Source: Dyadobacter fanqingshengii
GTDB taxonomy: Bacteria > Bacteroidota > Bacteroidia > Cytophagales > Spirosomataceae
NCBI RefSeq assembly: GCF_023822005.2
Contig: NZ_CP098806.1
Location: 930,001-994,000, forward strand
DNA: 64,000 nt
Reading direction: 5' to 3'
Made by a program: the position numbers and the translations under genes. The notes beneath the pieces were generated by a model. It was not told where the DNA came from, searched no databases, and worked only from the letters and a program-made list of their open reading frames with translations. This document shows, one piece after another, positions 4,619 through 37,700 of this stretch; within the stretch, counting starts at the first letter, position 1, and each line of letters starts with the position of its first letter.

Positions 4619-5004
4619 TCTACCACATTCATAGTGATGAACCGGTGTTGCGCTTTTACTTCTTCTATGTTAAAATCTTTGATTTCAGCGTCCTTTTTGT
4701 TGCGGATATATATCTTATATTTTCCCCTCTCCAAATTCGAAACGTCATAAGTGATTCCCGCTTTCTCACACTTTTTGTCTATGAAATTCTTTTGAATGAC
4801 GACGCCTTCCTCATTCTTCATGATAACAACCATTCTTTCCAACCGGGCATTAGTAATATTGATCCTGAGTCTGCCGTCTTTTAAAGGGTAAATTACCGAC
4901 TCGAAGGATTTGGCGCTTTTATTGTCAACGTCATCACTGGTTTTGGCATGTGCAGCCGATTGCAAGAAGAAATAACAGGCAAATACTTTTAAAATGGTTT
5001 TCAT
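4615..5004 (-). CDS. Small secreted protein, possibly DUF3244-like
   Basis: 129 residues with a clear Sec signal peptide (positively charged start, hydrophobic core, cut after AHA near residue 20). The mature part reads as a short beta-sandwich: a LRINITNA strand, a MVVIMKNEEGVVIQK pair, then YDVSNLERGKYKIYIRN. This pattern resembles DUF3244 or the sandwich of type IX sorting domains, but I cannot assign it firmly. It converges on the LytTR gene with overlapping stop codons. A TAAGTTTG box on the minus strand (5104-5111) is a plausible -7 promoter element. Confidence 0.65.
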   Translation of the reverse strand: MKTILKVFACYFFLQSAAHAKTSDDVDNKSAKSFESVIYPLKDGRLRINITNARLERMVVIMKNEEGVVIQKNFIDKKCEKAGITYDVSNLERGKYKIYIRNKKDAEIKDFNIEEVKAQHRFITMNVVD

Positions 5005-5103
5005 GGCTTTTTTTTGTTTTCATGGCTAATAGATAATGCTTAATTTTTCTTGTCGCGGTAACAATTTGCAAAACGCAATTCCGGATTACGCTTATTGGTA
5101 ATA

Positions 5104-5111
5104 CAAACTTA
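5104..5111 (-). promoter_or_regulatory. Candidate Bacteroidota -7 promoter box
   Basis: The minus strand reads TAAGTTTG, an exact match to the TAnnTTTG -7 consensus of Bacteroidota, about 100 bp upstream of the small secreted protein gene at 5004. I do not see a convincing -33 element at the usual distance. Two palindromes lie immediately beyond it (5117-5144 and 5140-5153). Confidence 0.35.
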
Positions 5112-5116
5112 TATGC

Positions 5117-5153
5117 AAATTGGATGATAAAAATCGTCCAATTTCTAGAAATT
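5117..5153. repeat. Two overlapping palindromes upstream of the small secreted protein gene
   Basis: AAATTGGA (5117-5124) and TCCAATTT (5137-5144) form 8-bp arms around a 12-bp spacer. AATTTCTAGAAATT (5140-5153) is a perfect 14-bp palindrome overlapping the second arm. They sit just upstream of the TAAGTTTG box and could be operators. Confidence 0.35.
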
Positions 5154-5177
5154 AGATGCTCCATTCATAAGGTGGAG

Positions 5178-5284
5178 CAATGCCTGCCTTCATCCATTTT
5201 CGCTTGCATTTGTTATACAAAACTAGCGAGCCTGCAACCCCAAAAATTGTACAAATCGGACTTTTCAGAGAAATGCAGGCATTG
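5178..5284. repeat. Gene-free stretch bounded by 10-bp inverted repeats
   Basis: Most of 5154-5295 has no gene. CAATGCCTGC (5178-5187) and its exact inverse GCAGGCATTG (5275-5284) bound a 107-bp segment containing smaller dyads such as TTTGTTATACAAA. It could be a structured transcript or a decayed small mobile unit. Nothing in it codes convincingly. Confidence 0.3.
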
Positions 5285-5291
5285 GCGAATC

Positions 5292-5357
5292 AAAAACTGT
5301 TCTTCAAATAAAATGCTCGCTTTAATAGTAAAGCGAGCATTTTATTTGAAGAACAGT
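5292..5357 (-). terminator. Rho-independent terminator with a 29-bp perfect stem
   Basis: Arms 5296-5324 and 5329-5357 are perfectly complementary over 29 bp around the loop ATAG. Read on the minus strand the hairpin is followed by TTTTTG (5292-5296), and it starts 17 bases after the stop of the cytochrome/PA14 gene. It therefore ends the SusC-SusD-cytochrome operon. The stem is far longer than usual for an intrinsic terminator. Confidence 0.75.
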
Positions 5358-5373
5358 ATGGATTACAGCCAGC

Positions 5374-8300
5374 TTACTTCGGTATTTCATTCATGTTGTA
5401 CCAGGCTTCCGTGCTCCATAAGTTGCTGCCGTTTTGGCTAGTGATGTTTTTTCTGTTCAAATGAATGTATACCATGTGCTTGGGCTTCATGCCCGTCAGC
5501 TGCAAGGAAACTTTCTTGCGGTCGGCTGAAACTTTTACCGCTTTTACTGCCAGGTTTTCTTCATCCAACTTAGGCCCGCCGTAATCTCCAGTGGGTTTAA
5601 ACCACCATTGACGGATCTCATAATCGGCTGCGGTTTCCCCTACGCCTTCTTTCATTGGCTCAGTAAATTCAATTTCCAGACCGTCCGATTTTGCCCTTAC
5701 AGCCAACATTTCAAATGCCATTTTGTTATTGAATGTCAGCTTTTGCAGTCCATAACCGAATTTTCCGGCGTGTCCCCAGTTACCCGTAGAACCCACACCG
5801 CCCAGGTAAAGCGAGCCGTCTGGCGACCAGGCCAGACGGTTGACGCCCGCTTCCAATCCTTGCGTAAACCGGAACACTGCGCCCTGGTAAGCACCATTCA
5901 CTTTTTCGGCAAACACGCGCTTGATCCCGCCGTGCGTCACATCGCCGTGAATCATTTGATTTTGGTAAGGACCTACATTCAACCTTGCCGGCTGGCTTGG
6001 CGAATTGCCAATTTCATCCTGCGTAAGCCACACAACGGGCGGCTTTTCCTTCCTGTCCGCTGTTCCTTCAAAATCAACAGAACGTGAACCATACCAGGCG
6101 CCTTCCTGCAAGTGAATGATTTTGTTCGCAGGCAGCCAGTCGCCCTGGTTGTCGGCGATAAATATTTCATTATCAACGCCAAGCCCAATGCCATTCGGCG
6201 TGCGCAAACCGGATGCTACGAATGTAAACGAGCCGTCTTTCTTGGAGATTTTCACCACTTTGCCACGATCCGGGATTTGTGGTTTGGTGCTGGCGCCGCC
6301 GGGATTAATGGCCGTGGCGAGCGTTCCGTAGAAGTAACCGTCTTTGTAAACCAGCCCGAAAGCAAATTCATGGAAATTGGCTGAGACTTTCCAGCCATTG
6401 CAAATGGTCTGATACTCGTCAATGAGCTCGTCGTTGTTCAGGTCCACCAGCTTGGTGAGTTCTTGTTTTTGCATGATGTAAATTTCATCATCCACCACTT
6501 TCAGACCCAGCGGCTCGGCTAAGCCATAGGCAATGCGCTTTACCTTGATGTCATTCGGCGTCGCGGCTTTGCGGCCGTCCACAATGTAAACGGAACCCAG
6601 TGAATCCCAGGTGCTGACAACCATTCTGCCATCCGCCAGAAAATCCATTCCGCCCACTCTTGGCTGGAAATTGTCCGGTCGCGCCTGCGCCAATGTGAAG
6701 CTTGGATGCACGGCAACCAATGGCGATCTGTCGCCGGGAATGTTTTCTTTTTTAACATCAACGGGCGTTTGTCCGGTCCTTTTAATGTCTGCGCCTTTGT
6801 AGGTAAAAACGCTTGGGGGAACCACCACGAATTCCTTGCTGCCATAAGGCTGCCATTGCAAAGAAAGTCCTTTGCCAAAAGCGCCCTGATAATACTCCAC
6901 CTTGAATGGATGTTTGCCCGGTTTCAGAATAATTTCCCCGTCCGTAGGCTGCAAAGCGTGATTAACACCATTGTCAATCACCAATTTATCATCAATAAAA
7001 AGCTTCCCGCCGTCGTCACAGACTAGTCGGAAAACAATGTTGGTAGTCTTCTTAATGTTGATATAACCGCTGGCGTAAATGGCGAAATTGTCTTTCAAAT
7101 CACCAAAGTCCTGGTCGTCCAAATGCAATGCATTAATAGATCCGGATTTCACAGGTAACATTTCATCGTTGATTTCAGGAACACCGCCTATGCCGCTGGC
7201 AAACTGGTAAATGTTCACAGCAATGCCGGGCCTCGCCAGGCCGGGCCTCGCCAGGCCGGGCCGCGCCAGGCCGGGCTTCTCCGACGCCGTCGCAACTTTT
7301 GTGGGAACAATGGATTTGAGAATAATAGGGTAGGCCGGCTTTGGCATTAATTTGCTTGCCGCCTGCGCTCGTTCCTTGTCCGCATCCAGTTCCAAAATGT
7401 AGGAAACCATCGTTTCCGCATCTACCTTTTTCAAATCCGGGTGCGGCGACATGGCAATTTGTCCCCAGTTGCCTGCACCGCCCTTGATCACTTTGGTTAC
7501 CAGCGCGTTCTTGTTTTTGTCATTGTTTTCGTAACGCTCAGCAATGGCCTTGTAAGCAGGGCCCACGGTTTTCACTTCCTGGTTATGGCAAGTGTTGCAA
7601 TCACTTTTGGCAAAAAGTCCTGTCACCATATCGGCTTTGCTTTCTTGTAACGCGGTCTGTGGCTGCGCCGGTTTCTTGGTCAGGTTTACGGAAAAATTGG
7701 TTTTACCATTATTATTGAGGATCAACTTTCCATTCATCGCGATGAAGGATTGGTTTCCAGCCATTTCCTTGCTTTTAACGCCCAGGAATTTCCCATTTGT
7801 CTTGTAGTCGGTATCAACTGAAAGCGAATTCAAATGCAAATTCAGCGACAACAAAATGTCAGCAGGGGCATTCGAAACTGTAAAGACCCGCTCAAAACCA
7901 GCTTTGCCATTCCCGGCATCAAAAAATTCAGGCTTCTCTTCAACTGAAATCTTTTTACCCTGATAATCCAGCTCGTATTTCAATGTAACCTGATTGTCCA
8001 GGATCGTGTGGCCTTTGTAGCTGATCTCCGGCGTAACTTCCTTGCTATCGGCTGTAATGCGCCACGGATTTTGGTCCGGTTCTTCCATGTAAGTCGTTCC
8101 TTCCGAAACAGGCTGCGGGCCGTGCGAAGATGTGTAAACCGGCCCGCTGAAATTGATCTTGCCTGCCCAGGCTTTGTATAATGAAGCCGTTTTGGTGTTG
8201 TAGGCGAGCCAGAGATTGTCGTGCAATGCAATGCTGAGAATCCTTGGCCTGGCATCGAGCACCGAGCGTAAAACCCACGCTTCACGCGGTCGCTTAACGT

Positions 8301-8529
8301 CTGAAAAGCCAGGGCTGGTGCCTGGCTTTAAGTAAAAAGTGCTGGTCAGGCCGCGATAGGCCGGGCCGCGATAGGCCGGGCCGCGATAGGCCGGGCCGCG
8401 ATAGGCCGGGCCGCGATAGGCTGAGCCAAGTACCGCAACGATTATTGCGGCACTCAGCACAGCCAGACGTGGCCCGGCCAGGCGTGGCCCGACCATACGT
8501 GGCCCGACCATAAACTTGCGAAATTTCAT
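5374..8529 (-). CDS. Secreted cytochrome c / PA14 / beta-propeller protein carrying in-frame tandem-repeat insertions
   Basis: Large exported protein (1051 aa), third gene of the SusC-SusD operon. Order of parts: a signal peptide interrupted by repeats (1-60), a region like 'membrane-bound dehydrogenase' N-termini, a class I cytochrome c with heme motif CNTCH and a likely axial Met in IAMSPHP, a PA14-type carbohydrate-binding domain (FRLVCDDGGKLFIDDKLV), a six-bladed NHL/sugar-dehydrogenase-like propeller (VGGMDFLADGRMVVST to WSPDGSLYLGGVG), and a C-terminal beta domain. It may oxidise a sugar and pass electrons to its heme, but the substrate is unknown. The oddity is four inserted repeat blocks, at plus-strand 7226-7277, 8305-8329, 8351-8425 and 8467-8511, all preserving the frame. 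Without them the N-terminus reads as an ordinary signal peptide. Confidence 0.85.
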   Translation of the reverse strand: MKFRKFMVGPRMVGPRLAGPRLAVLSAAIIVAVLGSAYRGPAYRGPAYRGPAYRGPAYRGLTSTFYLKPGTSPGFSDVKRPREAWVLRSVLDARPRILSIALHDNLWLAYNTKTASLYKAWAGKINFSGPVYTSSHGPQPVSEGTTYMEEPDQNPWRITADSKEVTPEISYKGHTILDNQVTLKYELDYQGKKISVEEKPEFFDAGNGKAGFERVFTVSNAPADILLSLNLHLNSLSVDTDYKTNGKFLGVKSKEMAGNQSFIAMNGKLILNNNGKTNFSVNLTKKPAQPQTALQESKADMVTGLFAKSDCNTCHNQEVKTVGPAYKAIAERYENNDKNKNALVTKVIKGGAGNWGQIAMSPHPDLKKVDAETMVSYILELDADKERAQAASKLMPKPAYPIILKSIVPTKVATASEKPGLARPGLARPGLARPGIAVNIYQFASGIGGVPEINDEMLPVKSGSINALHLDDQDFGDLKDNFAIYASGYINIKKTTNIVFRLVCDDGGKLFIDDKLVIDNGVNHALQPTDGEIILKPGKHPFKVEYYQGAFGKGLSLQWQPYGSKEFVVVPPSVFTYKGADIKRTGQTPVDVKKENIPGDRSPLVAVHPSFTLAQARPDNFQPRVGGMDFLADGRMVVSTWDSLGSVYIVDGRKAATPNDIKVKRIAYGLAEPLGLKVVDDEIYIMQKQELTKLVDLNNDELIDEYQTICNGWKVSANFHEFAFGLVYKDGYFYGTLATAINPGGASTKPQIPDRGKVVKISKKDGSFTFVASGLRTPNGIGLGVDNEIFIADNQGDWLPANKIIHLQEGAWYGSRSVDFEGTADRKEKPPVVWLTQDEIGNSPSQPARLNVGPYQNQMIHGDVTHGGIKRVFAEKVNGAYQGAVFRFTQGLEAGVNRLAWSPDGSLYLGGVGSTGNWGHAGKFGYGLQKLTFNNKMAFEMLAVRAKSDGLEIEFTEPMKEGVGETAADYEIRQWWFKPTGDYGGPKLDEENLAVKAVKVSADRKKVSLQLTGMKPKHMVYIHLNRKNITSQNGSNLWSTEAWYNMNEIPK
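7226..7277. repeat. 15-bp tandem repeat array B (inside CDS)
   Basis: Three full copies of a 15-bp unit (plus strand CCGGGCCTCGCCAGG, the third with G for T) and a partial fourth. On the coding strand it encodes repeated GLARP in the linker between the cytochrome c and PA14 domains (KPG, three LARPG units, then IAVNIYQF). It shares the 12-base core GGYCGGGCCNCG with arrays A and C. Confidence 0.9.
8305..8329. repeat. 25-bp REP-like hairpin inside CDS
   Basis: AAAGCCAGG (8305-8313) and CCTGGCTTT (8321-8329) are perfect inverted arms around GCTGGTG. The segment encodes KPGTSPGF just after array A in the gene's N-terminal region. It looks like a palindromic intergenic-type repeat read through in frame. 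Confidence 0.6.
8351..8425. repeat. 15-bp tandem repeat array A (inside CDS)
   Basis: Four perfect 15-bp units (plus strand CCGCGATAGGCCGGG) at 8351-8410 followed by a variant copy to 8425. On the coding strand they encode AYRGP repeats placed at the end of the signal peptide, next to the expected cleavage site. Same orientation on the DNA as array B, but read in a different frame. Confidence 0.92.
8467..8511. repeat. 15-bp tandem repeat array C, inverted orientation (inside CDS)
   Basis: Three 15-bp units (plus strand ACGTGGCCCGACCAT and variants). They encode MVGPR/LAGPR repeats between the charged n-region and the hydrophobic core of the signal peptide. The reverse complement of the unit carries the same GGYCGGGCCNCG core as arrays A and B, so this array is the same repeat in opposite orientation. 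Confidence 0.9.
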
Positions 8530-8540
8530 TTAAATATGTT

Positions 8541-10268
8541 TTAGTAACCTGGATTTTGCTTCAACTGCGGTGAAGAGTTCAATACATTCTGACCGATCGG
8601 GAAGATGTCCGTGTGGTTGTCGCCATCAGGCTTTTTATCCCACCAGGTTCCCGTGCTGAACACGCCCCAACGGATCAGGTCCGTTCTTCTTCTGCCTTCT
8701 GCGAGGAATTCACGCATCCATTCGTCCAGCATTTCCTGGTCGGTCAGCTGACTGCCGTCCGCCTTGTACAAACTCGGTGAGCCGGCTGGATAGTTGCGTT
8801 TGCGGACCGCATTCAGCAATGTGGCAGCCGCCGCTTTGTTGCCCGCCCTGTATTTGCATTCTGCCAATGCATAATAAATTTCGGCAAAACGAACCTCCGC
8901 ATATGCCGACGAGATTTTGTTCGCATCGTCGCTTGGGTAATACGGATATTTCACCGGATAAAGACCCGAGTTGTTGTCTGCATTGTTCATGTTCGAAACC
9001 TTGTCGGCGATTTTTGTTCCCGGTTTTGCATCCAGAAATTTACCAACCTGATCACGCAGGAACAGGGGATAAGGGCCTTTGAAACCTCTTACTGTGTCCG
9101 CTTTTCCAGCCGGGTTCGTATAAGGCAGATAGCCGTACAGGAACATTCCATCGCGCTTGCTGTTGCCCAGGTTTTTGTATTTTTTCAAACGCAGATCATC
9201 CTTATATTTCTGGAACTTGATAAACGGCTTGCCCAATGCAAAGCTGTATTCGACACTATCCACATCGCGTCCCGGTTGCATGGCATATTTGGGGTTGGCA
9301 TTGCCGAAATCGGTGAAGCCAAAATAGCTTGGCGCGAGGTTTGGAAGCATCCAGAAATACATGCCACCGTCATACTGCCAGTGCGTTTGCGCAAAGCTGC
9401 CGGGAAAACCGAAAATGGTTTCTTTCGATGTTGGATTGGTGTAGTCAAATGGTGCATCCCACCGGCTTTCAAGCGCATAAGCTCCATATTTCCCGTCGAT
9501 AATGTCCTGGGCGAATGTTGCGCAATCTGCAAAACGATCCGTGCCGGTGTACACTTTTGCATTCAGGTAAAGCCTTACCAGCAGTGCAGCCGCGCCGCCT
9601 TGCGTCCAGCGTCCCGTTACATTATCACCCAATGTCGTGTTGGTCGAAAGTTTTGGAAGCGCGTCTTTCAATTCCTGCTCGATGAAAGCAAATGCCTCCT
9701 GCGGAGTAGCCTGCACACCACCTTCCGTTTGCCCTTTTACTTTGGTAACTATGACAATGTTTCTGTAAAAATCCAGCAAACGAATGTTCAGCCAGGCGCG
9801 AAGCACTTTCAATTCCGCGATCATCCCATCGAGCTCCTCGCGCGTCATATCGAATTTGGTAGGGTCCGTAATGCCTTCCAAATCTTCCAATGAGTTGGTA
9901 GCCAGCGTCACGCCTCCGTAAAGTGCGTTCCAGGCATCGCTTGTGTAGCCGTCCTGCGGCGTCCAGGTGTGGTAATGCACGCGCTGGAACTGGCCGCCGT
10001 CAAACCAGTCGCCCTGGCGGTTTGGCGTCATCATTTCATCGGAGCTGTTTTCTTGCAGCATGAACGTGCTGCCGCCCTGAATGCTCCAGTAGCTGTGTTC
10101 GAATGCCCGCAAAAAGTCCCTCGTCACGTCGTCCCGCGTTTGCAGGAAGTTTTCGGAGGTGATCCGGTCGTATAATTCTTCGTCCAGGTTGGTGCAGCCC
10201 GCCGTCACCGAGAGCAGTGCACAGGCAGCAAACCGGAGCATGTATTTTGAAATAGGATTGCTTTTCAT
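8541..10268 (-). CDS. RagB/SusD-family nutrient-binding outer membrane lipoprotein
   Basis: Surface glycan-binding partner of the SusC protein at 10295. A lipoprotein signal ends in VTAGC (Cys25), followed by the SusD N-terminal pattern LDEELYD. The C-terminal SusD_RagB region contains VRFAEIYYALAECKYRAGN and the WMREFLAEGRRRTDLIRWG motif, ending with the family-typical LKQNPGY. I chose the ATG at 10268; a TTG three codons earlier is possible. It lies 27 bp after the SusC stop and 11 bp before the cytochrome/PA14 gene. Ligand class is not deducible; the GH43 gene nearby suggests a xylan- or arabinan-like glycan. Confidence 0.95.
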   Translation of the reverse strand: MKSNPISKYMLRFAACALLSVTAGCTNLDEELYDRITSENFLQTRDDVTRDFLRAFEHSYWSIQGGSTFMLQENSSDEMMTPNRQGDWFDGGQFQRVHYHTWTPQDGYTSDAWNALYGGVTLATNSLEDLEGITDPTKFDMTREELDGMIAELKVLRAWLNIRLLDFYRNIVIVTKVKGQTEGGVQATPQEAFAFIEQELKDALPKLSTNTTLGDNVTGRWTQGGAAALLVRLYLNAKVYTGTDRFADCATFAQDIIDGKYGAYALESRWDAPFDYTNPTSKETIFGFPGSFAQTHWQYDGGMYFWMLPNLAPSYFGFTDFGNANPKYAMQPGRDVDSVEYSFALGKPFIKFQKYKDDLRLKKYKNLGNSKRDGMFLYGYLPYTNPAGKADTVRGFKGPYPLFLRDQVGKFLDAKPGTKIADKVSNMNNADNNSGLYPVKYPYYPSDDANKISSAYAEVRFAEIYYALAECKYRAGNKAAAATLLNAVRKRNYPAGSPSLYKADGSQLTDQEMLDEWMREFLAEGRRRTDLIRWGVFSTGTWWDKKPDGDNHTDIFPIGQNVLNSSPQLKQNPGY

Positions 10269-10294
10269 TTTTGGCAATTTGGTATTTTCAGAAA

Positions 10295-13200
10295 TTAGAA
10301 AGTAAGCTGTAAACCAAGCAGAAGCTGCGTGGTGGAAGGATAATAATCCAGCGTGCCATTGTTGTCACCATTGATGCGCACACCCGGATACAATCCGTTC
10401 ACCTGGATCAGGTCAGGATCGCCGCCCGTGAATTTGGTGAATGTTGCCAGGTTTCTCGTGGTCGCATAGATCCGCGCCGACTGCATAAACTTGGATTTCA
10501 GCGGCTGCGTGTAGCTCAGCGTAATGTTGTCGATCTTCAAAAATCCGCCCGGTTCCAGGAAATAATCCGAAAGCGAAGAATACGTTGAGGTGCTCGTCAG
10601 CTTGGAATATTTGCTGCCGTCGTAGGCAGAAGTCAGCACATTCGCATTTTCCTGAGCCGCTGGTGTTCCCAGATAGAAGGCATATGTATTGAAAAGTTTA
10701 TAGCCAAATGCGCCGCGCAGGAACACGCTCAAATCCCAGTTTTTGTATTTGAATGAATTGGTAATCCCGGTTGTAAATTTGGGAAGACCATTTCCTACAA
10801 ACTGCTTGTCGTCATTGTTGGCTTCATTCGCTGGCACGATCTCACCATTTCTGTTATACACCAGCAATGCGCCATCATCATTCACACCCGCAGATTTAAG
10901 TGCATAAAAGCCTCCGATCCGCTGATCTTCCTGCAAGCGCTGAATAGTTCCCGGGCTTCCCGGCGCAGGCATGCCCACGACGTCGATGAATTTCTGACCT
11001 TTGTACAGGTCGTTGGAAAACGAAACAAACTTGTTGTCGTTCCAGGCGCCGGTTATGCCGAGGTTATAGCTGAAATCGCCCTTGTTCACAACAGTCGCAT
11101 TCAATTGCAATTCAACCCCCGTATTCCGCATGGTTCCCACATTGGCAAATGTTTGTCCCTGAATGTTTGGCGGATTAGGCACATTGTAATTGCCCAGCAG
11201 ATCCTTGTTCGTACGCACGTAATAATTCAAGCTACCATTGATTTTGCTGCTGAAAAGTTCGAAGTCGACACCCGCATTGAAGTTGACCGCTTTTTCCCAA
11301 CGCAAGTTGTAGTTGGTGTTTTGATTGGGCCCCCAAACCTGATAAGGCGAGCCGTTGAATGGATAGTAACCATATCCTCCATATGTATCCAGGGACTTGT
11401 AACTGTCAAAATCCTGGTTTCCCGTTTCACCGTAATCCGCACGCACTTTCAATTCGTTCAGCCAGGGAATGTCTTTCAAAAAGCTTTCCTGCGTCACTCG
11501 CCATGCAAGCGAAGCAGCCGGGAAATAGCCCCATTTGTTGTCATAGCCAAATTTGGAAGATCCTTCCCTGCGCAAACTGGCAGACAAATAATATTTTTGG
11601 TCAAAATCATAATTCACACGACCGAAGAATGCAATCAGTTTGGAAGTGTTTTTGTAAGAACCTACACCATTAATGCCCTTTTCCAGGTTCCATAATCCCG
11701 TTCCAAGCCCATTATAAGTAAGCACATCGGATGGGAATTTTTCATTGGCAGCGTCAAAACCGGAATTGGTAAAATACTGGTAAGAATAACCCGCGAGAAG
11801 CTTAATAGAATGTTTATTCAGATCTAGAAAATAGTTTCCCAGCCATTCCAAGCTCTTTTGATCGTTTTCGTCTAGAAACTGCCTAGCCGTATTACGCCCG
11901 TTTCCGTTAATCACCGTCGTAATGTTGGATGGCGTAAACCAGTATCTGCGCGCTGATCGGCTCACTTCCCCAAAAGTCACCGTTGTGTTCAGATTGTCCA
12001 GAATGTTCCATTTTGCAGATCCGTTGATATCCAGGAATTTAATTTCCGAGTCACGGACAACACTTTTTGCATTTTCAACAGGGTTATTGGCAAAAAATCC
12101 GGAGTTGATATAATTGTAACGACCCGCCGAATCCCGCACAGAAACCGTTGGGTTCAATGTCAGTGCATAGTTAAATCCGCTGTAATCAGCATCACTTGTT
12201 TTGGCATAACGGGGCGCTACGCTGAATGTAAGCGCAAACTTGTCGTTTGCAGTTGTGTGGTTAATGTTCACACGCCCTCCATATTCTCTCTTAGCAGCAC
12301 GCAGGTCAATCCCGTTCGCATCCCGGAAATCCACCGAGCTGAAATAATTGGTCTTGCCATTTCCGCCCGAAAACTGCAATGTATGTTTGTGTGAAAACGA
12401 TGGCTGACGGCTTACTTCTTTCATCCAGTCTGTGTTTCCGCCGAAATCTACACCGCGCTTGTTGGCTAGAAAACTCTCTTTGGAAAGCACTGAAAGTTCA
12501 TTGGTTTTGTAATCAAAAGTCGTGTAACCATCGTAAAACAAGCGCGATTCGGCTGAGCCTTTCTTGGTCGTGATCACGATTACGCCGTTACTGCCGCGCG
12601 TTCCGTAAATCGCCGAAGCCGCACCGCCTTTCAGCACGTCGATGGATTCGATCTCGTTTTGGTTAATGTTATCAATGTTACCGCCGGGAATTCCGTTGAT
12701 GACGTACAAAGGTCCCAAACCCGCACTGCGTGACGATGCACCGCGCAACTGAATGTTAGGTGAAGAGTTAGGATCCGCAGCCGAAGTGTTGGTAACCGAA
12801 AGTCCCGCAACCTTGCCCTGAATGGCCATCAGCGGGTTATTGCTGCCCACACGAAGCAGGTCCGACGAAGACAAGTGCGTAATGGCGCTGGACACTTCCC
12901 TTTTGTTAAGCGAACCATAACCGATCACAACCACTTCATTCAGCGTTTTCTGGTCTTCCGCCAGCGTAACTTCCACATTCGATTTGTTGGTTACATCCAC
13001 ATCCTGAGCCAGATAGCCCACACTTGAAACAGTGATCATTTTGGCTCCGGCCGAAAGTTGTAATGTAAATTTCCCTTCGGTGTCCGTGGTGGTTCCGTTG
13101 GAAGTTCCTTTCTCGATCACCGACACACCTGGTAAAGCGCCCTGTTTATCAGAAACTTTACCCGTAATTGCATTGCCGGTCTGAGCCTGAGCTGCACCGG

Positions 13201-13309
13201 ACAAGACACAAAGCATGCCCAACAGCATCGCCACGGCAGTCTTCGCAGACCAGCGCGTGAACGCCTGCTTTTTAGCAACTTGTGCCAGTTTGTACAAATT
13301 ATTTTTCAT
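10295..13309 (-). CDS. SusC/RagA-family TonB-linked outer membrane protein
   Basis: TonB-dependent outer-membrane channel (1004 aa) that imports oligosaccharides with its SusD lid. After a signal peptide (to AQAQ, about residue 43) comes a carboxypeptidase-regulatory-like domain (ITGKVSDKQGALPGVSVIEKGTSNGTTTD, split here), then the SusC box LNEVVVIGYGS. The plug carries the family motif IDVLKGGAASAIYGTRGSNGVIVITTK (two parts), followed by a 22-strand barrel ending in LLLGLQLTF. First gene of a leftward operon, divergent from the hybrid two-component regulator at 13559. The 249-bp intergenic region holds symmetric candidate operator elements. Confidence 0.96.
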   Translation of the reverse strand: MKNNLYKLAQVAKKQAFTRWSAKTAVAMLLGMLCVLSGAAQAQTGNAITGKVSDKQGALPGVSVIEKGTSNGTTTDTEGKFTLQLSAGAKMITVSSVGYLAQDVDVTNKSNVEVTLAEDQKTLNEVVVIGYGSLNKREVSSAITHLSSSDLLRVGSNNPLMAIQGKVAGLSVTNTSAADPNSSPNIQLRGASSRSAGLGPLYVINGIPGGNIDNINQNEIESIDVLKGGAASAIYGTRGSNGVIVITTKKGSAESRLFYDGYTTFDYKTNELSVLSKESFLANKRGVDFGGNTDWMKEVSRQPSFSHKHTLQFSGGNGKTNYFSSVDFRDANGIDLRAAKREYGGRVNINHTTANDKFALTFSVAPRYAKTSDADYSGFNYALTLNPTVSVRDSAGRYNYINSGFFANNPVENAKSVVRDSEIKFLDINGSAKWNILDNLNTTVTFGEVSRSARRYWFTPSNITTVINGNGRNTARQFLDENDQKSLEWLGNYFLDLNKHSIKLLAGYSYQYFTNSGFDAANEKFPSDVLTYNGLGTGLWNLEKGINGVGSYKNTSKLIAFFGRVNYDFDQKYYLSASLRREGSSKFGYDNKWGYFPAASLAWRVTQESFLKDIPWLNELKVRADYGETGNQDFDSYKSLDTYGGYGYYPFNGSPYQVWGPNQNTNYNLRWEKAVNFNAGVDFELFSSKINGSLNYYVRTNKDLLGNYNVPNPPNIQGQTFANVGTMRNTGVELQLNATVVNKGDFSYNLGITGAWNDNKFVSFSNDLYKGQKFIDVVGMPAPGSPGTIQRLQEDQRIGGFYALKSAGVNDDGALLVYNRNGEIVPANEANNDDKQFVGNGLPKFTTGITNSFKYKNWDLSVFLRGAFGYKLFNTYAFYLGTPAAQENANVLTSAYDGSKYSKLTSTSTYSSLSDYFLEPGGFLKIDNITLSYTQPLKSKFMQSARIYATTRNLATFTKFTGGDPDLIQVNGLYPGVRINGDNNGTLDYYPSTTQLLLGLQLTF

Positions 13310-34717: not shown

Positions 34718-37700
34718 ATGGCTGCTTCTGATGGTGAAATTTTTGGACTGACCAAAATATTGGACAACGGTCCCGACAATCAAAGATTTAATATCGTTAT
34801 CGTCGCCGAGGGCTTTCTGGGCGCGAATGCCGCTGCCCAGACCGACTTTAACACCCGCTGCCAGGAAATCGTGGACGCATTCCGCGACGAGCCCTGGTTT
34901 AGCGAAGGCTTGCTGGCAGCGATCAATATTCACCGCCTCAACGTCCGCTCGGACGATGCCGGTGCTGATAACCCCGCCACCTGTGCCGACATGTCGACCG
35001 CCACGGCGGTTTCGGCGGACACCTATTTCGATGCTTCCTATTGTTCGTCCGGCATCAGGCGCTGTCTGGCCTGCGACTGGACGCTCGTCCGCGATACGCT
35101 TACTGCCCAGTTGCCGCAATGGCATGCCGCCGCAGTGCTGGTAAACAGTAGCGAGCGGGGCGGCTGCGCCAGCGGGAATGTCTTTGCCACCGCCCTCAGT
35201 ACCGACTGGCTCGATGTGGTAATGCATGAGCTCGGCCATGCAGCTTTCCGCCTGGCAGACGAGTACAGTTACTGGCAAGGGTGCTCCAGCGGAGAGACCG
35301 ATCGCGACAATGCGCCTGGCGGAGAGCCCGCCGATCCTAACATTACCGCCAGTTCCGGTCTTGCAGGCTTGAAATGGGCACACCTTGTTGGTCCGCTGAC
35401 CCCGGTGCCAACCATGCAAAATCCCGATTGTTCAGCTTGTGACAACCGTGCTAATGTAAGGCCGGATGACCATGAAATCGGTCTCTATGAAGGTGCCGGT
35501 TATTATCACTGCGGCTATTTCCGGCCAGCCTACACTTGCCGGATGCGCAATTCGTTCGAGCCATTTTGCCGTGTATGTGCCGAAGCGGTGCAAGACCGTC
35601 TGCGCCCGTTTTTCACAGCGCCTGCGTTGGCTGCATCCGTATCCGCGCTGGACTTTGACAGCGTAGGCAGCGGGTCAACGCTTACGCTTACATTTAATAT
35701 CAGCAATGTCGGCAGTGTTCCGGTAACGGGCATCGCACTAAGCAGCGATAGTCCCAACTTTTCCGTTGCGCCGAATTCATTTGCCAGCATGGCTCCCGGG
35801 GAGACACAATTGATATCAGTCACTTTCGGACCTGCATTCACAATCGGTGCCCGCACGGGTACAATTCTCGTTACCAGTAATGCGGCCACACTCAGCATCG
35901 AATTGGATGCGTTCGTTTGTACGCCATCGGCGAGAATGGACATGCAGACGGCAGACGGATCGACCACGCTGAATTTCGGGGATGTTGGCCGGCGCCTTAC
36001 CATGTACCGCTGGTTCGAAGTGCGCAACCTGCAACGACCATGCGCGTCGCAGCTGCACGTGACACTCGGCGGCCCGCCAGCCGGTTTTGAGTATGCACCG
36101 GGAACAAACCTGAACTTCACGCTGGCTGCGCCAACGCCCGCGCAGCCCTTCACATCCCGGCGGGTATATGTAGCATTTTCCTCGCCTGCAGTGGGAGGTC
36201 CCGACTTCAACGGCAATCTCACCATCACCACCCCGGACGATGCCGTAACACCTTCCGTTACCCTGAACCTGATCGCTCGCGCTGTTGACCCGCCGCCGGT
36301 GGATTCTGTGCTGGTCATCGACCGTTCAGGAAGTATGAGCGAGCCGACCGGTGTGCCTGGCGCTTCCAAAATGGACCTCGCGATCCAGGCCGCAAACCTT
36401 TACATCGCGTTGCTGAAAGATAATGACCGCATCGGCGTAGTCCGTTTCAATCATGCAGCCAACAATCCAGGCGATGTGCTGCAAACACTGGTTGTTGCCG
36501 GAGATCCAGAGACCGGCGCGGGCAGGGCGTCTGCCCGAAGCGTGCTGACAGCCGCCAATCTCAGCCCCACTGGTGCAACTTCAATCGGAGGAGGAACGAT
36601 TCTGGGCAGTACGGTGCTGGACACTGCTGTTGCCAACGCAAGAGCTGTGGTGGTGCTGACGGACGGGATTCAAAATACCAATCCGGATATTCCGGCTGCC
36701 AGCGCGGCCGTCGCCGCGAAAATACCCAGGCAGCGTGTGTTTGCGGTAGGGTTGGGGTTAAACCAGCTGGAAGACAAGCTTGTACAACTGGCTTCGGTCA
36801 ACAATGGTGTCGCACAGATCACGGGCGAGCTGGCCGGCGACCGGGAATTTTTGCTTCAAAAACTATATGTGCAAATCCTGAGCGACGTAGCCGATGAAGC
36901 TTTTGTGCAAGATCCTACCAATGTCCTTTTCCCAGGAACCGAGCAGGCGACCGACATTTATATCGGCGAGGTGGATGTGGCTGTGGATTTTATCATTGTA
37001 TATCGCAAAGCTTCTGCTTACCCAGCCATTGAGCTGTGGCTGGAAGCTCCCGACGGCACCATTGTCCGTCCCGGTGATGCGGGAAGCACATTTCCAAATT
37101 TTATGTTTGTGACGGGTGACGGCCATGTTTATTTCAGATGTCAGTTTCCTGCCTTTCCAGACCGTCCGCAAGCGCACATCGGCCGTTGGCGGGTATGGAT
37201 GGCGAGCCGCCGGGGCAAGCCGGTACTAACGCATGGTTACAGTCAGGGCAGCAGCGTTAATTTTTACTATTCCGTGATGGCCAAAGCGCGGAGTGATATG
37301 CGTTTGAATGGTTTTCTTTCGCAAAGCTCGTATGAACCCGGCTCGCCAATGCTCCTGGTCCTGGAACCAACTTTGTACGGACAACCGGTCAAGCTCGACG
37401 CTCCGGTGGAAGCGCGGTTCACACGGCCGGACGGCACGATCCGCATCATTACATTAGCGGAAACGGCATATGGGCAATACAGCGGAACATTCGGCGATAC
37501 GCATCAATTGGGTGTATATCCCGTTTCTACGATGGTTATGGCTACCACGCCCGCAGGCGCCGTTGTCACCCGTTACCGACTTTTCACCGGGTTGATCTTC
37601 AAGCCGGGACAATCCGGTGGTGATCCCAACGGAGGTGATCCTAACGGGGGAGATCCTAACGCAGGAGGGAAAGATCCGGAATGCCGCAAAGCTGCCGCCG

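Follow-up and report, generated by a model that had tools for sequence, protein, structure and literature searches.

The DNA examined here, a stretch of 64,000 nucleotides from Dyadobacter fanqingshengii of the family Spirosomataceae (contig NZ_CP098806.1, positions 930,001 to 994,000 of the forward strand; hereafter the window), carries on its minus strand a gene for a multidomain protein (hereafter the host gene), into which three tandem arrays of a 15-bp unit, A1 to A3, are set. The gene, the recognisable parts of its product and the arrays as delimited by Tandem Repeats Finder (TRF) are as follows.

8529-5374, minus strand: host gene, an open reading frame (ORF) of 1051 amino acids (aa).
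N-terminus of the host protein: signal peptide, recognised by eye only.
Residues 305-381: cytochrome c domain, by Pfam and PDB sequence matches.
Residues 474-568: PA14 domain, by Pfam and PDB sequence matches.
Residues 669-796: DUF7133-like part, Pfam score 26.9 bits, just under the cut-off of 27.
7225-7276, plus strand: array A1, 3.5 copies, 97% match, unit GGCCGGGCC(T/G)CGCCA.
8349-8421, plus strand: array A2, 4.9 copies, 100% match, unit GGCCGGGCCGCGATA.
8463-8510, minus strand: array A3, 3.2 copies, 87% match, unit GGYCGGGCCACG plus TAT, CCT or TCT.

All three arrays have a period of 15 and are free of insertions and deletions (TRF), with lengths of 48-73 bp. An earlier note on this DNA had proposed that one 12-base core, GGYCGGGCCNCG, underlies the three arrays, that the third carries it on the opposite strand and that the dissimilar peptides are different readings of the same DNA, and the sequence bears this out, with the core on the minus strand in A3 and on the plus strand in A1 and A2; the arrays had been recognised correctly, with exact positions that are off by a few bases. 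A1, in the linker that joins the cytochrome c domain to PA14, codes on the minus strand for three copies of GLARP, A2 codes for AYRGP directly past the hydrophobic stretch of the signal peptide (VLGSA/AYRGP) and A3, in the signal peptide n-region, codes for MVGPR/LAGPR, these peptides being one 15-bp unit read in differing frames. The sites in the n-region and the linker are those that the note had described; its placement of A2 at the cleavage region calls for a small correction, as from its position after the hydrophobic stretch A2 probably lies in the mature N-terminus.

Within the window, all 9 exact copies of the core fall inside positions 7200-8520, compared with about 0.04 expected from base composition, and the whole 6.27-Mb genome holds 10 exact copies (4 for the reversed pattern), of which 9 lie in the host gene and the tenth is a lone copy outside it. 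With 2 mismatches allowed, the core is matched 36 times in the whole window against a shuffle mean of 25.5, a small excess that 3 of 100 shuffles reach.

The evidence on how the arrays arose comes from orthologous sites. A protein search of the genus gave matches in 48 of 48 genomes and 17 near-full-length orthologues at 84-100% identity. At A1, four of the 17 are filled with one to three units of varying sequence and frame, and the remaining 13 are empty, reading EKPGIAVN or a near form (one has an unrelated five-residue extra upstream). Among 97 aligned homologues, drawn from the best 120 of 302, A1 units are present only in P0001, P0002 and P0005, all close relatives, and the other aligned homologues read (P)G(I/M/V/L)A-N-like with no unit (the region of P0093 does not align). 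Since homologues of other genera are without the A1 insert, the empty state is, on this alignment, the ancestral one. About 6 of the 15 bases are already present at the uninserted A1 site, and the gained unit supplies what is missing of the core.

The other two sites are similarly patchy. At A2 the window species has 4.9 units, five other orthologues have one AYRGP unit, nine are empty and two further ones carry other units, including an inverted hexamer; at A3 a single unit is found in four other orthologues and a diverged unit in G022. As relatives are seen with one unit at A2 and at A3, these two arrays of the host gene were probably amplified from single units. On a gene tree built without the array columns, the array states, which were assigned by eye, must have changed at least 4 times at A1, 5 times at A2 and 6 times at A3; 8 of the 24 inner branches of this tree are unresolved. 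The sister genomes G034 and G018 are exactly 15 bp apart at A2, at A3 and in one unrelated gene. Further Dyadobacter arrays lie in unrelated proteins, namely a sulfatase (just past the signal peptide), an AraC-type regulator (at the C-terminus), a TonB-type receptor and others, these names reflecting a reading of the sequences rather than database assignment; the same core does therefore occur in unrelated genes of related genomes, as the earlier note had anticipated for a mobile repeat. At the AraC-type C-terminus G016 is longer than G011 by 45 bp, and at the sulfatase locus G037 is about 60 bp longer than most of nine aligned relatives. Several insertion points have a native GGCC or GGGCC, but the unit is otherwise missing at A1, at the AraC site and at the sulfatase site.

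The gain of foreign units is well supported by these alignments, which show whole units gained at new sites in either orientation and in any frame, with a copy number that varies between species. Within Dyadobacter each site is filled in part of the orthologues and empty in the remainder, so that the same arrays are clearly not fixed throughout. The earlier note had argued for a mobile or templated mini-repeat as opposed to simple slippage, and the empty sites, together with an A1 insert that is mostly foreign to the ancestral DNA, favour that argument; slippage still matters, as at A2. As an observation apart, about 70 bp near the G037 sulfatase (L328, query 363-434) match their own reverse strand and places in G011 and G037, perhaps as a dispersed inverted repeat.

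The unit consists of a 12-bp core, GGYCGGGCC(G/A)CG, the first nine bases of which form a near-palindrome, and a G-poor linker of 2 or 3 nt. The six frames hold 16, 6, 5, 9, 22 and 8 of the 66 arrays with a clear reading frame; another 67 of the 133 arrays could not be assigned to a frame, 63 because it was ambiguous and 4 because no ORF of 120 aa was present, in a tally that leaves aside Actinomycetota/Bacillota loci and eight control loci and may retain one Paenibacillus array copy. Mismatches amount to 38 of 780 core positions and 46 of 312 at the four variable positions (78 units, p 2e-7), where units outside the ascertained block are compared with the nearest ascertained unit and are taken as independent. 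In first units the 3-nt linker avoids G, which occupies 11 of 399 positions, and A-T and G-C covariation is seen between positions 10 and 15. By these measures, conservation acts on the DNA more than on the protein. The hexamer N10-N15 is shared by 17% of 165 same-genome array pairs, compared with 5.7% when labels are shuffled (p 0.002 in Burkholderiales alone), for 84 arrays among the matches listed in 31 of 39 genomes, a set chosen for having arrays. Some actinobacterial arrays are kept in the mismatch and hexamer tests, and in the latter they add no within-genome pair. Such clustering of linkers by genome would be expected if units are copied within a genome or if a subtype is inherited by common descent.

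The spacing of the units differs inside and outside genes. When a linker of 0-24 nt is allowed, matches are found in 76 of 222 genomes of the family, about 250 in all against about 55 for the reversed pattern, which served as control throughout (several match totals for genus and family, including these two, were counted by hand). Array tallies from the family survey cover the matches listed, and the last genomes, including genus g33, are not among them. The 101 arrays so obtained comprise 66 with a 3-nt linker, 19 with a 2-nt linker (TA or CA in 17 of the 19), 10 that are compatible with two periods, the unit in between being decayed (one or more of the 10 may be chance matches), and 6 others. 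Of 46 arrays with 15-bp spacing 44 are within ORFs, compared with 2 of 20 with 14-bp spacing, of which three more are partly inside and scored as not inside (Fisher p 5e-12; one ORF caller, arrays less than 250 bp from a locus end omitted); random spots in the loci of the two kinds fall inside ORFs at 84% and 88%. In G028, a 14-bp array of 12 copies stands between genes. Two orthologous arrays that directly follow a stop codon differ in their last linker, which has 2 nt in one species but 3 nt in its counterpart. In this family, where the spacing is mostly 14 bp outside genes and 15 bp inside them, the reading frame is therefore a filter on arrays in genes and not a property of the unit. The earlier note, in stating that the frame always survives because the unit is 15 bp, had this backwards, given the predominance of 14-bp steps where the core stands outside genes.

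In the genus, a looser two-unit pattern that leaves positions 10-15 free is matched in 13 of 48 genomes, with 30 forward matches against 10 for the control by hand count, and in the family it is matched in 65 of 222. A survey of the 48 genus genomes for single units gave 27 matches outside G000 against 8 for the control, most of the 27 within arrays. Among 58 unit pairs taken from the matches listed, about one per array, 52 are in the same orientation and 6 in opposite orientation, and positions 11-12, which are free in the search pattern, are CG in 49 of the 52 same-orientation pairs. A three-unit pattern run against GTDB genomes finds at least 120 loci, which among the matches listed include 20 in Alcaligenaceae, 17 in Oxalobacteraceae, 16 in Actinomycetota, 13 in Cytophagales, 11 in Halieaceae and 10 in Burkholderiaceae; occurrences in Alcaligenaceae, Halieaceae and the like come from selected loci as distinct from unselected surveys. 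The core is thus found in at least two phyla, Bacteroidota and Pseudomonadota. With a two-unit full-core pattern, 17 of 145 Oxalobacteraceae genomes are matched, of which 6 were known beforehand, while the reversed pattern matches 1, and in an even sample of the class of Massilia 2 of 276 genomes are matched, one of which is the centre of the sample itself.

Viral contigs yielded one with 15-bp spacing and none with 14-bp spacing, the sole exact 15-bp two-unit match being at 10227-10253 of L441, an 81-kb uncultivated viral contig. A search of plasmids with a 69-nt repeat query gave no match, a weak result as the low-complexity filter was on. The same array layout with another centre or loop, e.g. 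GGTCCGGCCTGGATA, was noticed in L018 and at single places in G125 and G155.

We consider it probable that the arrays are members of a dispersed family of DNA micro-repeats that is copied to new sites and, within genes, filtered by reading frame. In a founding event, a single unit or a few units would be copied, with an array already present or some other template as the source, to a target that already bears a short match (GG, GGCC or GGGCC), perhaps through strand misalignment at the near-palindrome of the core, and later slippage would raise or lower the number of units. In genes, the 15-bp spacing would survive by keeping the frame, with 14 bp usual between genes. For the host protein it is most likely near-neutral to carry the repeat, which signal peptides, linkers and ends tolerate.

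Several observations weigh against this account. The genome of the window has no other array by the patterns used and hence no donor array outside the host gene; the earlier note had held that a lack of further copies in the genome would speak against mobility, and with one lone core and no array that is nearly the case, so that the case for mobility rests on relatives. In genus g33 the looser two-unit pattern gives about 79 forward and 69 reversed matches (hand count), scarcely above the control, and so says little there, and given about 55 control matches, part of the approximately 250 variable-linker matches may be due to chance. The test of spacing against ORFs includes a few orthologous array pairs, which makes its p-value somewhat too small. 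The frames are unevenly used (p 0.001), so the encoded peptide matters somewhat. At loci L017, L019 and L024 the flanks have diverged and the length differences are not all multiples of 15. Hairpin stability was considered as a driver and rejected, as both strands of the three window arrays and of one artificial array fold, as DNA, no better than shuffled sequences (z -1.76 to 1.17). Bases 11-12, in the would-be loop, are as constant as those of the stem, a feature for which misalignment alone gives no explanation; the constancy of CG there suggests some form of recognition. Finally, in Actinobacteria the two-unit full-core pattern is matched in 5 of 296 genomes against 11 reversed, not above the control. 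Set beside the excess in Oxalobacteraceae, these counts indicate that the repeat family is real and confined to some clades, and that GC content alone does not make it.

A dedicated enzyme might make the units, either a single-strand transposase of the repetitive extragenic palindrome (REP) type or a reverse transcriptase that adds a templated 12-nt core with a loosely set junction of 2-3 nt, as at telomeres. The constant core with its variable linker of mostly 2 or 3 nt, the gain at unrelated sites in both orientations and the patchy distribution between relatives would all suit such an enzyme, which we nevertheless regard as unlikely, since there are few arrays per genome, no shared flank or inverted end stands beside them and the linker is identical within many arrays, which fits local duplication. 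Rather doubtful, too, is the idea that repeated templated synthesis with a loose 2-3 nt junction, telomere-like at internal sites, makes the 12-nt core, with 14 bp as the default, genes keeping the 15-bp versions, and short peptides being added in at least two phyla. A selected cluster of sites for a DNA-binding protein, of which genes tolerate only frame-preserving spacings, would account for a core that varies less than its linker, is nearly palindromic and recurs in at least Bacteroidota and Pseudomonadota; it is improbable, because some or most relatives, depending on the site compared, lack the array, its presence within a genus is patchy and the 14-bp arrays show no fixed placement with respect to the genes beside them.

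Ordinary replication slippage of native 15-mers that resemble one another by chance in GC-rich code is very unlikely as the whole explanation. Slippage agrees with the change in copy number at A2 (1 unit in relatives, 4.9 here), with the native GGGCC-like seed at some sites and with the frequency of period-15 repeats that lack the core (12 of 14 rows in two 400-kb samples), but it is contradicted at A1, where the ancestral DNA supplies about 6 of 15 bases and the rest of the core comes with the gained unit; moreover, the core is common to differing genes, frames and two phyla, and GC-rich Actinobacteria show no excess. Least credible of all is a device for phase variation or for tuning the export of the host protein, as the earlier note had suggested from the location of arrays in the signal peptide and linker, and with which differing copy numbers between species would agree: a step of 15 bp keeps the frame and cannot act as a switch, so that phase variation finds no support, the core also forms arrays in unrelated genes, and orthologues are empty in 9 of 17 cases at A2 and 13 of 17 at A1.

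Comparison with known kinds of repeat places the proposed micro-repeat family nearest to Rickettsia palindromic elements and PARCELs (palindromic amphipathic repeat coding elements), from both of which it is set apart by the size of its unit. Rickettsia palindromic elements are mostly single copies. As far as the cited accounts describe them, they are palindromic repeats of about 150 bp (PMC10969869) lying in frame in unrelated protein genes, typically at unstructured sites (PMC10969869, PMC2996958). With these and the related Wolbachia elements the present repeat shares palindromic DNA and in-frame insertion in unrelated genes, the latter found here as well; it differs in its 12-bp core, its 14-15-bp tandem unit, its two spacings and its occurrence in other phyla or classes. 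PARCEL is described as an amphipathic protein repeat of 75 nt (25 aa) with conserved hydrophobic residues (PMC2996958). Tandem intragenic repetition, dyad symmetry and a scattered presence in distant bacteria are common to both, and the present unit, in contrast to that 75-nt conserved protein repeat as the source presents it, is 15 bp long, conserved as DNA and used in six frames.

The units of variable-number tandem repeats (VNTRs), or minisatellites, at unrelated loci are generally unrelated to one another; the arrays resemble VNTRs in their fixed-length tandem units and in a copy number that differs between relatives (1 and 4.9 between species at A2), and are unlike them in that one unit recurs at many loci and genomes. 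REP sequences and bacterial interspersed mosaic elements (BIMEs) have a partner REP-associated tyrosine transposase (RAYT) and a GTAG-type tag, and the hallmarks of miniature inverted-repeat transposable elements (MITEs) are terminal inverted repeats and a target-site duplication. The present units are likewise small, dispersed and in part palindromic, although far shorter than REP/BIME or MITE and often within genes. No MITE-type ends, that is, shared flanks or inverted ends, were found beside 66 arrays; a repeated GG is often seen where the arrays end, but a short match would account for it just as well. A longer element around the arrays was considered and rejected, as 14 cross-matching rows between flanks reduce to four orthologous locus pairs, two 22-bp matches and one weak match. 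Unlike phase-variable repeats, in which gain or loss of a unit switches the frame or the promoter spacing, the units in the host gene keep the reading frame by their length of 15 bp. Literature searches confined to open-licence PubMed Central papers brought up no description of the motif.

If the proposed reading is true, a DNA motif of 12 bp acts as a dispersed element within protein genes and provides proteins with new short peptides in their signal peptides, linkers and termini. The contrast between 14-bp spacing between genes and 15-bp spacing within them would then be a natural experiment on the filtering of insertions by frame, and the arrays a tractable case for the spread of a repeat too small to hold genes or transposon ends.

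As regards the surroundings of the host gene, defence-system models run on its protein gave no match, and no known RNA family reached the gathering threshold in window positions 5000-9500. Upstream on the same strand (window 8541-13309) lie ORFs that by sequence reading are SusD-like and SusC-like, and given these neighbours the host gene may belong to a polysaccharide-use locus. Elsewhere in the window, at 37615-37665, another 15-bp repeat codes for three copies of GGDPN in a 1059-aa protein, with DNA unrelated to the core. Many short tandem repeats are present in 400 kb of G156, a genome of the same family (L227-L246), with periods of 7 (31 rows) and 14 (20 rows), possibly heptamer repeats.

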